DNA of 64,000 nucleotides from Sphingobacteriales bacterium (GTDB taxonomy: Bacteria > Bacteroidota > Bacteroidia > Chitinophagales > Chitinophagaceae). Position numbers and translations under genes: made by a program. A model generated the notes under the pieces. The model was not told the origin of the DNA, ran no database searches, and saw only the letters and a program-made list of their open reading frames with translations. Every line of letters begins with the position of its first letter. The first letter of the stretch is position 1. The stretch spans positions 1 to 64,000 of the forward strand of contig OMJB01000075.1 in the NCBI GenBank assembly GCA_900299255.1. Reading direction: 5' to 3'. Below are positions 28,086 through 33,593 of this stretch, in pieces.

Positions 28086-28883
28086 ATGCCTCTCTACAGT
28101 AAACAAATTCAAATACTCATTGTCGACGATGAGAAAAAGGCCTGTGCAAACCTAAGAAATATTTTATTGGAATTTGTTGATCCCGGCCTGCAAATAGTGG
28201 GGGAAGCAAATAGCACGATGGAAGCTGAGCAACTTATTGCAATACATAAGCCAGACGCAATTTTTCTGGATATTGAAATGCCCAACGAAAACGCCTTTCA
28301 TTTTTTGGAGCGAATTGCGCCTTTTGATTTTGAAGTGATATTTGTAACTGCTTATGAAGAATATGCGATCAGGGCTTTTCGACTAAATGCAATTGACTAC
28401 ATACTTAAACCCATTAGTATTAAGGATCTCAGCACTGCTGTGCAGAAATTGAAAGACAGAATACGGCACAAAAGGATAATAGACAACAAAAACACATCAT
28501 ATACTGAACTGGCAGACCAGGTGCAGAATAAGTCAAAGTATCAGAAGATTATCTTAAAGGACCTGAACGCAGTTGAATCAGTTGATTTCAGAGACATTTA
28601 TTTTATAGAGGCACAGGGCAGTTACTCAAGATTTATTTTTTGCAAAAACGGCAAGAACAGGGAAATGACAATGAGCAATCCTTTGTCTCAATATGAAGAG
28701 ATGATGCCCGGAGATTCATTTTACAGGGTTCATCGTTCCTACCTGATCAATTGTCAGCAGATAAAGAAAGTTGTAAGTGACGGTAATAGCTTAGTGGTTA
28801 TGAAAGATGGAACAGAAATACCTGTTAGCAGAAGACGATATATGGGGCTTATTGATTTTTTAGATTGCCATAATTATTTATGA
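28086..28883 (+). CDS. LytTR-family response regulator
   Basis: 265 aa. Receiver (1-125) with D14/D15 pocket, Asp62 (AIFLDIEMPN), Thr in FVTAYEE and Lys in ILKPIS; LytTR DNA-binding domain (about 155-260; IILKDLNAVESVDFRDIYFIEA, FYRVHRSYLINCQQIKKV, IPVSRRRY). LytTR proteins bind paired direct repeats with a GTT core. The stop overlaps the kinase start by 4 nt, so the two are a cognate pair. Confidence 0.95.
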   Translation: MPLYSKQIQILIVDDEKKACANLRNILLEFVDPGLQIVGEANSTMEAEQLIAIHKPDAIFLDIEMPNENAFHFLERIAPFDFEVIFVTAYEEYAIRAFRLNAIDYILKPISIKDLSTAVQKLKDRIRHKRIIDNKNTSYTELADQVQNKSKYQKIILKDLNAVESVDFRDIYFIEAQGSYSRFIFCKNGKNREMTMSNPLSQYEEMMPGDSFYRVHRSYLINCQQIKKVVSDGNSLVVMKDGTEIPVSRRRYMGLIDFLDCHNYL

Positions 28884-31822
28884 GATCCGGATGGCGTATC
28901 ATACTAACCCTGACTGTACTGTTTTTTGCATGTGGGTTTGCATGCGCGCAGGATTACCCGATGATGCACTATACGATGGAGGAAGGGTTGCCCAGCAATA
29001 CGGTGTACTCTGTGTACCGCGACAGCAAAGGTTTTCTGTGGTTTGCTACCGATAAAGGCGTGGCGAGGTACAACGGGATAAAATTCGAGTTGTTTACCAC
29101 CTTTGATGGTTTGCCGGATAATGAAGTATTTCTTTTTCAGGAGGATTATGAAGGAAGGTTATGGTTTGGTACCTATAACGGAGACCTAGGTTTTTATCAG
29201 GATGGAGTTTTTCACAATAAAACAACTGATACATTTCTGAATCTGAAAACGAGAGTTTCGCATATTTTTGGTATGTACCTGAACACTGACGGCAGTGTAA
29301 ACATCAGATTCGTACACAGTTCCTTTTTCTTAAATATCAAGCACGATAAATGTACAATATATGACACTCAGCCAATTGTTGGGAAGGAAAATCTGCACAC
29401 TTTCTTTTTAGGAATTAAAATAGCACCTGATCAATTTAAACTGATTGGGATTGGAAGGAATCTGATTTTTGATACCGCATACAGAATAATCAGCGAAAGC
29501 AAAAATCAGTTGGCGGCTCCTTTAACCAGTTTCAGGTCACAGAATTTACATTATTTAGTAGACAGCAGCTTTGTGTACGCTGATAATTTATCAAGGCTAA
29601 GGCGGCTACCGCCTGGTTTTTATGAGAGAAATACAATACACTCTTACTACACAGATGGCATAAACTATTTTTATTCCACTGCTGCCGGCCTTTATATCAA
29701 TGATACCATAAGAATATTGCAGGATTGTAATGTCACTTCCATGACGCAGGATGTGAGTGGAAATTACTGGCTTAGTACACTGAATAACGGTGTGTATTGC
29801 TTGAAAAAGGAATTTTTAAACACAAGGGTTTATAAGAACGTATATGACGGTACTGTGAAATACTGCTATGAAGACAGGGCGAGCCGATTTTTTGTGCTAC
29901 AGAATAATAGCCTTTACAGTTTCAAGAACGGGAGTGCAAGGTTGCTCTTCGACTATCCGAAATTCTGGAAAAAGGAATACAAATATCCGGGTGATGCCGG
30001 TTATTCTATTTTGAAAACAGGTGGCGTTTACGATTATTTCAGCATTTACAACGATAACTACCTGCATCTTCATGATATTGAAGGCAGCAATAAAACGATT
30101 GTCAGTTATAATGGGTTATTTAAGTATATTCTGATGCCAAAGACACTCATAGCTGCGAAAAAGGAACTGTTTATTAAATCTATTGTAGACGTGGTCGTTG
30201 AGGATAATCCTTTACGCAATGATGAAAATATCAGAAGGCGTTATTATTCCCCGGACTCAACTGACAGATCAAGGATTTTTGGTATCACACTTGATGAGAA
30301 TGAACACCTCCTTTTTTCAACAATCAGGAGCGTGTATATGATAAAAGACGGCAAGTGTTCTGTGCAGAAGCAATTTGGCAATCTGGCATTTAAGACTATG
30401 GCGGTTTTTGGCAGCTACCTGCTGGGCATTACACACAATAATAACTTTGTTATCTGCAACAACTTTTCCGACCGGATTGCTATTGATTCAGTTAAGCCTC
30501 AGAACTGTGTCTGGTTTAGGTTTTTTAGGCTTGATTCATGCCATATTCTTATCAGCACCAACAACCTTTACCGGATACTAACACTGTATCCATCTGATAA
30601 TGTACCGAAGTATAGTATATCAACAATTGAAAATCCATTTATTCCCCTGGATGCAGAAGGGATTTCCTCTGATGGAATCAATTGCCATTTCTATAAAAAC
30701 CACTCAATAACTTCGATTGATATTGCAAAATTGCTGATAAGGCCTGAGCCTCCCGAACTTCATTTTACTTTCCTGAAAACAGTAAGTAATAATCAGTACC
30801 GGATAACCAGGGAAGTAGAATTGAGTTACGAAGCGTCGCGCCATATTTTTGTTTCGTTTGCAACGCGTTCATTCAGCGGAAGGGCTGTTGTTTATGAATA
30901 TTCAATAGTTAAAGGCAAAGATGAAACAGCCAAATGGCGTGAGCTGAAATTAGAGGGGTTCAGTATCGAAAATGCCCGTTTTGGTAACTACATAGTTAAA
31001 GTACGTGCAAGAACAATTTCAAGCCAATGGTCGGAGCCCATTTCTTTCCGGCTTCATATTCAGCGCCCTTATTGGGCCACATGGTGGTTTATATTGGCCT
31101 GTGTGCTGCTGGCAGGAGGGCTCACTTACTTTGCAATCAGGCTTCGAATCAGATATGTATTGGGTGCTAATAGAAAAAAGCATGAAGCTGAAATGAAGTT
31201 TGTGAAATCAGAATACAAAGCGTTAAATGCGCTCATGAATCCGCATTTTATTTTTAACACGCTTAACAATGTTCAAAGCCTTTTTAACGCTAATGATAAA
31301 CTGGCTGCTAATGAATATCTGCACATATTTTCAGACCTCATCAGGCAAAATATGTACAATGTCTCCAAAGAACTGATACCCCTGAACAGGGAACTGAATC
31401 TGGTTCGAAACTATCTGCTGCTGGAGAAACTCCGGTTTGAAGAAAAGCTCGATTTTAAGGTAAATACAGACGAGCATATTGATCTGTCTGAGTTTATGAT
31501 ACCGCCATTGCTGATACAGCCCCTTGTTGAGAATTCCATAAAACACGGCCTTTTGCCCAAGAAAGGCGGGACAGTTATCGTAAATGTTTTTGAGAAGGAA
31601 GGGAATCTTGTAGTAGAGGTTAAAGATAACGGCATTGGGCTTAAGAAAAAGGATGAAAATGCTGCGGTTTTTCATGAGTCTTTTGGAATAGATAACATCA
31701 GAAAACGCATTGAACAACTTAGCCTGATGCAAGGAAAGAAAATCAGTTTTGGTATAACTGATATTAACGATAGTGATGGAAATCACCTATGGACCATAGC
31801 AACCATAACAATGCCGTTGTAG
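28880..31822 (+). CDS. LytS-type sensor histidine kinase with two-component propeller and Y_Y_Y domain
   Basis: 980 aa. Signal peptide, then a periplasmic two-component-propeller (MEEGLPSNTVYSVYRDSKGFLWFATDKGVARYNG; GLPDNEVFLFQEDYEGRLWFGTYNGDLGF), a Y_Y_Y-like beta domain (about 640-725), one transmembrane helix (WWFILACVLLAGGLTYFAI) and a His_kinase/HATPase module with His789 in LMNPHFIFNTLNNVQ and DNGIGL. Only a few propeller repeats are well formed. Signal probably binds outside the cytoplasm; phosphate passes to the overlapping LytTR regulator. Confidence 0.93.
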   Translation: MRSGWRIILTLTVLFFACGFACAQDYPMMHYTMEEGLPSNTVYSVYRDSKGFLWFATDKGVARYNGIKFELFTTFDGLPDNEVFLFQEDYEGRLWFGTYNGDLGFYQDGVFHNKTTDTFLNLKTRVSHIFGMYLNTDGSVNIRFVHSSFFLNIKHDKCTIYDTQPIVGKENLHTFFLGIKIAPDQFKLIGIGRNLIFDTAYRIISESKNQLAAPLTSFRSQNLHYLVDSSFVYADNLSRLRRLPPGFYERNTIHSYYTDGINYFYSTAAGLYINDTIRILQDCNVTSMTQDVSGNYWLSTLNNGVYCLKKEFLNTRVYKNVYDGTVKYCYEDRASRFFVLQNNSLYSFKNGSARLLFDYPKFWKKEYKYPGDAGYSILKTGGVYDYFSIYNDNYLHLHDIEGSNKTIVSYNGLFKYILMPKTLIAAKKELFIKSIVDVVVEDNPLRNDENIRRRYYSPDSTDRSRIFGITLDENEHLLFSTIRSVYMIKDGKCSVQKQFGNLAFKTMAVFGSYLLGITHNNNFVICNNFSDRIAIDSVKPQNCVWFRFFRLDSCHILISTNNLYRILTLYPSDNVPKYSISTIENPFIPLDAEGISSDGINCHFYKNHSITSIDIAKLLIRPEPPELHFTFLKTVSNNQYRITREVELSYEASRHIFVSFATRSFSGRAVVYEYSIVKGKDETAKWRELKLEGFSIENARFGNYIVKVRARTISSQWSEPISFRLHIQRPYWATWWFILACVLLAGGLTYFAIRLRIRYVLGANRKKHEAEMKFVKSEYKALNALMNPHFIFNTLNNVQSLFNANDKLAANEYLHIFSDLIRQNMYNVSKELIPLNRELNLVRNYLLLEKLRFEEKLDFKVNTDEHIDLSEFMIPPLLIQPLVENSIKHGLLPKKGGTVIVNVFEKEGNLVVEVKDNGIGLKKKDENAAVFHESFGIDNIRKRIEQLSLMQGKKISFGITDINDSDGNHLWTIATITMPL

Positions 31823-32039: not shown

Positions 32040-32073
32040 GCCGTTCAGCAACTTTTTTGACCGTTCAGCAACT
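32040..32073 (+). promoter_or_regulatory. Candidate LytTR binding site (two 13-bp direct repeats)
   Basis: CCGTTCAGCAACT occurs at 32041-32053 and again at 32061-32073, 20 bp apart. The core with its preceding base (ACCGTTCAG, 32060-32068) fits the LytTR consensus [TA][AC][CA]GTTN[AG][TG] at all nine positions; the first copy (GCCGTTCAG) misses one. LytTR sites are normally two such repeats 12-13 bp apart; here the gap is 11 bp. The cognate regulator is encoded 3-4 kb upstream. The second repeat sits directly before TAATTTCG (32073-32080), one base off a -7 box. Confidence 0.55.
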
Positions 32074-32086
32074 AATTTCGGTGGTG

Positions 32087-32229
32087 AGAGTGAGCGCAAG
32101 TAACTTGCGGGCATTGTGAGGGTATAATAGCATCTTACCCTGCTTGGCCCCTTTTAGACCTCACTGCAGTTAAACAGATATATTTAACACCCTGTTTGCC
32201 CGGACAATTAATGTCGGGGCTTTTTTTTT
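32087..32229 (+). ncRNA. Candidate structured small RNA ending in a terminator
   Basis: Non-coding DNA downstream of the repeats holds a row of perfect stems: 32095-32109 (CGCAAG/CTTGCG, 3-nt loop); 32116-32121 with 32159-32164 (GTGAGG/CCTCAC), extended by GCA (32111-32113) with TGC (32165-32167); 32119-32124 with 32136-32141 (AGGGTA/TACCCT), which competes with the previous stem; 32169-32188 (GTTAAA/TTTAAC). It ends at the terminator 32198-32229. No open frame fits. The family is unknown; the start is inferred from the -7-like box. Confidence 0.45.
32198..32229 (+). terminator. Rho-independent terminator of the intergenic transcript
   Basis: GCCCGGACA (32198-32206) pairs with TGTCGGGGC (32212-32220) with one mismatch and an ATTAA loop, followed by nine Ts. 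It is 376 nt past the kinase stop, too far to be simply that gene's end, and 137 nt before hutI. Confidence 0.85.
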
Positions 32230-32316: not shown

Positions 32317-32324
32317 TACCTTTG
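32317..32324 (+). promoter_or_regulatory. -7 box of hutI
   Basis: TACCTTTG is an exact TAnnTTTG match, 42 nt before the ATG at 32367. No TTTG is seen at the -33 position. Confidence 0.4.
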
Positions 32325-32366: not shown

Positions 32367-33593
32367 ATGCGATTGCTCATCAATAACATTTCAACACTTT
32401 GTAATACAGAAAACGCGGACAGCGCCATAGAACGACGCTCAGGTGCCGATATGGTGCATTTGCCCTGCATTCAAAATGCGTGGTTACTTGCCGAAAACGG
32501 GATTATTCACAGTATGGGAGTCATGAATGCAAAGCCGGAAATGCATGCAGATGAAACAATCGATGCAACAGGCAGGATGGTGCTTCCAGCATGGGTGGAT
32601 AGTCACACGCATCTGGTTTTTGCGGCACCCAGAGATGGCGAATTTGTTGACCGTATAAAAGGGCTGAGCTACGAAGAGATAGCCCGAAATGGCGGCGGAA
32701 TTTTGAATTCGGCCAAACACCTGAATGCAATGGATGAACAGTTCTTGTTTGATCAGTCGTTGGAGCGGTTATACAAAGTTATGGCAACCGGTACCGGAGC
32801 TATTGAAATTAAGAGCGGGTATGGGTTGTGCCTTGAGGGGGAACTGAAGATGCTGCGTGTGATCAGGAAATTAAAAGAAAATGTAACTATTCCGGTCAGA
32901 GCTTCGTTTCTTGCAGCGCATGCATACCCAATGGAGTACAGGCAAAACAAGGCAGGTTACATAGACCTGATTATAAATGAAATGCTGCCTGCTGTTGCTG
33001 GTGAGGGCCTTGCTGATTATATTGATGTTTTTTGTGAAGAGGGTTTTTTTAGCGTTGCTGATACGGAGCGGATTCTGGAAGCAGGTGCCCGATACGGCCT
33101 TAAGCCTAAGATACATGCCAACCAGCTGCATTACTCCGGCGGCGTTCAGGCTGGAGTGAAGCACGGCGCAATAAGTGTAGATCATCTGGAGTGCGTGGGT
33201 GATGAAGAAATAGCAGCACTGAAAGGAAGTAATACAATGCCCGTATTGCTGCCGGGTGCAGCTTTCTTTCTGGGCATGCACTACCAGCCTGCAAGAAAGA
33301 TAATTGATGCCGGCCTGCCAGTGTGCCTGGCTACCGATTATAACCCGGGGTCCTGTCCATCGGGCAATGTGCCTCTGTTGCTATCCATTGCCTGTACGCA
33401 GTTGAAAATGACCCCTGAAGAGGCAATAAATGCGGTAACAATAAATGGGGCGGCTGCACTGGAACTGTCTGACCAACTTGGCACAATCAGGGTGAGAAAG
33501 AAAGCAAACCTGATAATAACCAAACAGATACCCTCACTTGCGTATTTGCCATATGACTACGGCAATAACAACATTGAGCGGCTCATTTGCTGA
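32367..33593 (+). CDS. hutI: Imidazolonepropionase
   Basis: 408 aa. Hydrolyses 4-imidazolone-5-propionate to formiminoglutamate in histidine degradation. Amidohydrolase metal ligands His80 and His82 in WVDSHTHLVFAAPRDGEF, later His in KIHANQLHYSGG, SVDHLE and ATDYNPGS(C)P are all present. Length is normal. No hutH, hutU or hutG/F lies beside it: the neighbours are a LytTR system and a sugar isomerase, so the rest of the pathway must lie elsewhere. Confidence 0.93.
   Translation: MRLLINNISTLCNTENADSAIERRSGADMVHLPCIQNAWLLAENGIIHSMGVMNAKPEMHADETIDATGRMVLPAWVDSHTHLVFAAPRDGEFVDRIKGLSYEEIARNGGGILNSAKHLNAMDEQFLFDQSLERLYKVMATGTGAIEIKSGYGLCLEGELKMLRVIRKLKENVTIPVRASFLAAHAYPMEYRQNKAGYIDLIINEMLPAVAGEGLADYIDVFCEEGFFSVADTERILEAGARYGLKPKIHANQLHYSGGVQAGVKHGAISVDHLECVGDEEIAALKGSNTMPVLLPGAAFFLGMHYQPARKIIDAGLPVCLATDYNPGSCPSGNVPLLLSIACTQLKMTPEEAINAVTINGAAALELSDQLGTIRVRKKANLIITKQIPSLAYLPYDYGNNNIERLIC

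Follow-up and report, generated by a model that had tools for sequence, protein, structure and literature searches.

A predicted LytTR-controlled small RNA beside its two-component system in the Chitinophagaceae

The DNA analysed here (the window) spans 64,000 nucleotides, positions 1 to 64,000 of the forward strand of contig OMJB01000075.1, from a Sphingobacteriales bacterium of the family Chitinophagaceae (assembly GCA_900299255.1; 3.47 Mb in 146 contigs). Downstream of a LytTR/LytS two-component pair in this window lies an interval that appears to specify a small RNA (sRNA) activated by a LytTR regulator, transcribed from a promoter of the TAnnTTGY type, intrinsically terminated and acting in trans. 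We put the probability of this reading at about three in four. An initial annotation of the same DNA had already proposed a LytTR-controlled sRNA beside its own two-component system; at the level of sequence, this proposal is supported by the site, the geometry of the promoter, the terminator and the relatives found in other genomes. Papers given by PMC number are cited from the parts of their text that were available.

A tandem LytTR-type site and its promoter

The annotated LytTR/LytS pair was confirmed by domain matches. The response regulator, the presumed activator (28086-28883, plus strand), combines a Response_reg domain (PF00072, E 2.4e-20) with a LytTR domain (PF04397, E 4.1e-21), and the LytS-type sensor kinase of 980 residues (28880-31822, plus strand) carries a Reg_prop propeller followed by His_kinase and HATPase_c domains. 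Propeller-kinase sensor systems of the LytTR type are numerous in Bacteroidota, and few of their outputs are known. About 218 nt 3′ of the kinase gene begins a site containing a perfect 13-bp direct repeat, CCGTTCAGCAACT (32041-32053 and 32061-32073), whose LytTR-type cores do stand at the 20-bp pitch first noted for them. As delimited by the repeats and by the consensus of 85 sites, the tandem site extends from 32040 to 32081 on the plus strand and comprises half-sites GCCGTTCAGCAAC (32040-32052) and ACCGTTCAGCAAC (32060-32072), with a −33 element, TTTCGG (32076-32081), abutting them. Compared with what we take to be the LytTR half-site consensus, [TA][AC][CA]GTTN[AG][TG], the second repeat (ACCGTTCAG) fits in full and the first (GCCGTTCAG) departs from it at the first position only. 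The half-sites lie some two turns of the helix apart, immediately before the upstream element of the promoter. A tandem of the 12-bp core of the repeat is found a single time in the window and never in 100 shuffles, and the site is unique in its own genome when up to 3 mismatches are allowed.

A degenerate form of the site pattern, searched with up to 3 mismatches, gave 44 matches in 14 of the 35 genomes of the genus and none with a reversed-pattern control. In a second genus, a pattern adapted to that genus's own hits gave 70 matches distributed over all 11 genomes, again with an empty control. Family-wide, the site was found in 8 of 244 genomes and 4 of 101 genera, the second genus being one of these. 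Searches with the kinase, counted throughout at E <= 1e-100, returned 22 matches (own copy included) in 16 of the 35 genomes; the nine named relatives include four from Flavipsychrobacter, classed within the Chitinophagaceae, and two from Taibaiella. Of these 22 matches, 10, the window's own among them, are followed within 220 nt by a tandem site with no more than 4 substitutions. Site and kinase occur together in 11 of the 35 genomes, the site alone in 3, the kinase alone in 5 and neither in 16 (Fisher p 0.002, uncorrected for kinship). The repeats are therefore conserved among relatives and, as judged by this distribution across genomes, the direct repeat is a genuine LytTR-type site belonging to a real regulon. 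The window's regulator would presumably be the protein that binds it.

Two reservations had accompanied the original description of the repeat. The first, that the gap between the repeats is 11 rather than 12-13 bp, is accurate as to the length, but 11 bp is the rule among these sites; it is also described as a minority spacing among LytTR regulatory systems (PMC6193735, available text). The second, that the first repeat can fold as a 5-bp hairpin followed by T6 and so form a weak terminator for the kinase gene, probably reflects a coincidence of the window copy, since, of these elements, the consensus of the 85 sites includes the T run but neither the left arm of the hairpin nor the GC in its right arm.

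The position of the promoter was deduced from the same collection of sites. The sets used here and below, of 85 and 84 sites, are sequence-distinct, pool the genera, exclude sites with too little flank and differ slightly in tolerance (3 substitutions, and up to 4, respectively). In 69 of the 85 sites, TAnnTT starts 18-20 nt past the final GG (48 at 20, 19 at 19 and 2 at 18), against 4.84 on average and at most 11 in 500 shuffles; the full forms found at that offset are TAnnTTGY (32/85) and TAnnTTTG (8/85). The fixed offset implies that the TTTTGG-like end of the site is a −33 element, with a −7 box 19-20 nt further on. Thus, the stretch abutting the second repeat, TAATTTCGG, which had been taken for a near −7 box at 32073-32080, is in fact the −33 element, and the −7 box proper is TAACTTGC, of the TAnnTTGY type, at 32101-32108 on the plus strand. 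In mapped transcription starts of Flavobacterium psychrophilum, TAnnTTGY occupies positions −12 to −5, as motif SM5, and is attributed to an alternative sigma factor (PMC9723704, available text). The position of the −7 box places +1 at 32113, in place of the earlier estimate near 32087, and yields an RNA of 117 nt up to the end of the T9 run.

The predicted RNA and its conserved motif

The window very probably makes a 117-nt regulatory RNA (32113-32229, plus strand), as deduced from the position of the −7 box and from the terminator; its transcription, too, is predicted from these elements. Predicted lengths are 115-117 nt for five members of the group, each from a different genome, and less for a sixth. 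The terminator was correctly recognised at the outset: its stem (32198-32220, plus strand) is followed by nine Ts (32221-32229), and it is the only secure stem of the molecule. The four stems, two of them mutually exclusive, that had led to the RNA being described as structured did not hold up. The interval 32080-32229 folds with a z-score of −2.6, but it includes promoter DNA, and the hairpin CGCAAGTAACTTGCG within this well-folding stretch contains the −7 box itself. The predicted transcript has a z-score of −1.35, which becomes +0.33 upon removal of the terminator; among four relatives folded singly, L108 scored −2.6 and the other three −0.65 to −1.07. RNAalifold found no common pair in eight sequences. 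A candidate stem enclosing the motif described below (GTGAGG/CCTCAC in the window, GTAAGCA/TGCTTAC at locus L077, ATAAGC/GCTTAT at L070) was matched or bettered by 27 of 300 shuffles in the window, 1 at L077, 43 at L070 and 76-267 for the other five RNAs; clearly beating its shuffles in one of eight RNAs only, this stem is unproven.

What is conserved in place of the stems is a linear motif that the initial annotation had not named, TGGCCCCTTTTAGACCT (32145-32161, plus strand). A run of 17-19 nt containing it is identical among the RNAs of the window, G031 and G028, which represent three species; shuffles reach 12-13 nt. The number of Cs in the motif is three or four, depending on the species. 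In the form GCCC(C)TTnTA, it occurs downstream of 12 of the 84 sites, in two genera, where 200 shuffles gave a mean of 0.275 and a maximum of 2; the pattern was formed post hoc, and this enrichment is partly circular and overstated. One of the 12 sites (L057, the same place as L082) precedes an open reading frame (ORF) of 63 codons rather than an evident non-coding unit. A 23-nt version of the pattern proved too rigid, matching in 2 of 35 genomes. A second, weaker shared patch, A-rich and then ACCC, was seen by eye in the alignments just 5′ of the terminator (32186-32192, plus strand). Retention of the promoter and, in part, of the short motif by relatives suggests a new sRNA family. None of 4227 Rfam families matched the 64 kb at its curated gathering score; ten weak matches all fell below gathering, the best by E-value being Hrs1 on the minus strand (28.5 versus 56.4).

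Possible modes of action and alternative readings

In the mechanism we propose, the sensor kinase would phosphorylate the LytTR response regulator, which would then bind the tandem site that borders the −33 element on the upstream side and, with activation assumed by analogy, recruit RNA polymerase to the TAnnTTGY-type promoter. The product would be a non-coding RNA of about 117 nt, largely unstructured and intrinsically terminated. Its action in trans, likewise conjectural, may proceed through the exposed C-rich motif GGCCCCUUUUAGACC, by pairing with mRNA or by contact with an RNA-binding protein; seed pairing is the usual role of such exposed motifs. The RNA would extend to the post-transcriptional level a regulon whose members, in other genomes of the group, include small peptides and secreted type IX cargo.

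Several observations weigh against this reading, besides the post hoc origin of the motif pattern. As to the kinase, 12 of its 22 matches have no site behind them, although two of these reach a contig end and a third shows, on visual inspection, a degenerate site. As to the RNA, exact sharing beats every shuffle in only 4 of 15 RNA pairs. As plain DNA the region has almost no similarity to other genomes: a search with 206 of its bases gave matches at E <= 0.01 in 5 of 60 genomes, own included, and only the match in G013 falls on the module. A sequence-only RNA profile run on the 35 genomes recovered its six training members (45-71 bits, E 2e-19 to 3e-11) and no new member above noise (next E 0.009, nothing else above 18 bits), and the RNA must therefore drift fast; a promoter-bearing unit among the G033 hits (L049/L097) scored only 13.3 bits. 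Many sites of the group precede coding genes, so that in other genomes the RNA is just one of several outputs. Finally, antisense targets were sought and not found. Near-complements of the motif in six genomes numbered 27, three of them the RNAs themselves, versus 91 for the reversed control, the complement being the rarer in each of the six genomes; among the remaining 24 contexts, 12 were viewed by eye and had no gene in common. The RNA showed no clear pairing with eight leaders of the same genome: 11 of 200 shuffles did as well for one leader and 59-186 for the other seven.

These negative searches favour a variant that overlaps our preferred explanation, namely that the RNA works by binding an RRM protein, as decoy or partner, rather than as an antisense molecule. 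The variant draws on the location of a gene for an RRM RNA-binding protein, present once in each of 31 of the 35 genomes at 78-100% identity, with a second, distant copy in five. Seven genomes, five of the genus and two from the second genus, have this gene adjacent to a site or to the kinase gene. A LytTR-site transcript converges on it in G013 (where it comes immediately after the RNA), G002 and G018 and, among genomes of the second genus, in G222 and G300; in G031 and G032 it directly follows the kinase gene, again convergently. Three of the RRM proteins were confirmed to have an RRM_1 domain. By a hand estimate (44 sites, genomes of about 4.6 Mb, shared ancestry uncorrected), about 0.02 sites would be expected within 1 kb of the RRM gene and three were seen. 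The linear motif is present in the RRM-adjacent units of G013, G222 and G300, and in Bacteroides the RRM protein RbpB is described as binding single-stranded parts of the FopS sRNA family (PMC11697453, available text). On the other hand, the units of G002 and G018 are devoid of the motif, the window's own genome has its RRM gene on a different contig (C116), and gene neighbourhood is not binding. In addition, RbpB is reported to antagonise FopS repression (PMC11697453), which means that RRM and antisense mechanisms are not mutually exclusive. Together, the neighbourhood and the RbpB-FopS precedent suggest that an RRM protein may have a role in the function of this RNA; that it acts so instead of by pairing is possible, if on balance doubtful. 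More tentatively still, one may imagine a LytTR system of the Chitinophagaceae in which a new sRNA family, in this genome the sole output detectable by its site, works with, or titrates, the RRM protein (in relatives often encoded by an adjacent gene) through an exposed GGCCCYUUNUA, so setting the expression of type IX cargo post-transcriptionally.

The RRM genes were recorded at L108:4514-4885, L081:4174-4524, L257:1501-2097 and L164:4187-4750, and further at L179:2257-2661, L112:743-1258 and L121:2214-2558. Strings resembling the motif close to the RRM genes of G001 and G004 were discarded; by eye, they lie in similar, coding-looking stretches.

The interval could also be a regulated leader or attenuator of the gene that follows it, an imidazolonepropionase-like amidohydrolase (32367-33593, plus strand). 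We presume the name hutI-like, as Pfam gives only Amidohydro_1/Amidohydro_3. A hutI-like gene is a recurrent neighbour: besides the window, 5 of the 16 other site loci tested have one downstream (L070, L077, L093, L094, L103). No hutI match was found in the available downstream stretches of the other 11, RNA-like loci L108, L100, L084 and L114 included (for L114 and L179 these stretches measure only about 1.3-1.5 kb). Moreover, the T9 terminator intervenes, as does a −7 box of the TAnnTTTG type, TACCTTTG (32317-32324, plus strand), identified by a promoter-pattern scan; TAACTTGC and TACCTTTG are the only matches to TAnnTTGY or TAnnTTTG between 31823 and 32372. Since the hutI-like gene has a box of its own, the RNA looks like an independent unit. 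The hutI start is also predicted to pair only weakly with the RNA: with duplexfold it ranks 70 of 73 ORF starts, in a ranking that is crude and non-discriminating. We consider the leader reading unlikely. To much the same degree we doubt that the stretch is simply the 3′ end of the kinase mRNA with a remnant promoter and no functional RNA. The poor conservation outside promoter, motif and terminator would fit such a remnant, but the geometry of the site has been kept, and three species with diverged flanks share all 17 nt of the motif. Least probable of all is a small-protein mRNA with the promoter driving a short ORF, for although peptides of about 29-37 residues that look conserved are encoded behind sites in both genera, the window RNA has just one closed ORF of at least 8 codons, which has 9 codons and starts from TTG, no such ORF is common to six RNAs, and the alternation of three and four Cs in the motif reads as a one-base length change (MAFFT placed no gap there).

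The wider regulon and relation to known systems

Genes behind the other sites indicate what else the regulon contains. From 14 secreted proteins encoded behind sites of the genus, ten were chosen for testing and nine of these ten have a Por_Secre_tail domain (type IX); the loci are L071, L072, L073, L078, L079, L080, L092, L095 and L096, and NHL repeats are present in two of the proteins tested. Other sites are followed by peptide genes, the products measuring 36-37 residues in the genus and about 29-34 in the second genus. The former occur at L086, L101, L106, L087 and L102 (sites 19, 35, 41, 20 and 37), are of two or more sequence types, with endings such as QPLNSCDTFLDF or MILINIYHKLISKAE...YLYLLK, and are possibly signal peptides or small membrane proteins. 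In the second genus, the same promoter type leads to peptides of 31-34 residues at L159, L176, L183, L185, L198 and L199, which are hydrophobic (MKHLTIAISVFLLLSYF...) or end in LIRCQF, LIRWQF or INRCQF. At L074 and L078, behind the kinase gene, short ORFs sharing YVSIRAPG lie upstream of a larger gene for a secreted-looking protein. Two genomes, G028 and G032, have two successive RNA units at one locus. At L077:4849-5259 and L094:3393-3797, two successive LytTR-site RNA units precede hutI, the second being of the conserved type; this pairing looks like a local duplication.

Regulatory RNAs are known outputs of comparable regulators. VirR of Clostridium perfringens, which we take to be of the LytTR family, is close in principle through its VR-RNA, but phylum, promoter type and RNA are all different, and here the RNA gene adjoins the kinase gene and its promoter has the only site found in the genome. 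RNAIII of Staphylococcus aureus is much longer than the predicted RNA, about 500 nt, and CiaR of Streptococcus pneumoniae is not a LytTR regulator. The predicted activation of a regulatory RNA by a LytTR protein from two direct repeats would resemble that of RNAIII by AgrA, for which two direct repeats upstream of the promoter and a P3 −35/−10 spacing of 20 nt are described; RNAIII also encodes delta-haemolysin (PMC4227749, available text). The Ccn sRNAs of CiaR, from another phylum, are alike in being small RNAs that serve as a two-component output (PMC11478796, available text). By description, the FopS/RbpB system of Bacteroides thetaiotaomicron is similar in pairing a Bacteroidota sRNA family that has a conserved sequence element with an RRM protein; FopS, however, comprises 14 paralogues behind canonical sigma promoters, whereas here one or two units per locus stand behind a LytTR site (PMC11697453). 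No description of the present system was found in the literature searched on LytTR, sRNA, RRM and type IX secretion, at the level of titles and the starts of abstracts and with few subscription journals covered. That a LytTR regulator should drive a regulatory RNA is a known principle; the phylum, the promoter, the RNA family and the gene company appear to be new.

The DNA site, the promoter geometry and part of the regulon can be read directly from genomes, and the site consensus allows targets to be predicted for this class of regulators in the Chitinophagaceae. As predicted here, the system would couple such a regulator to an sRNA family, in a phylum where ties between RRM proteins and sRNAs are a recent finding (PMC11697453).
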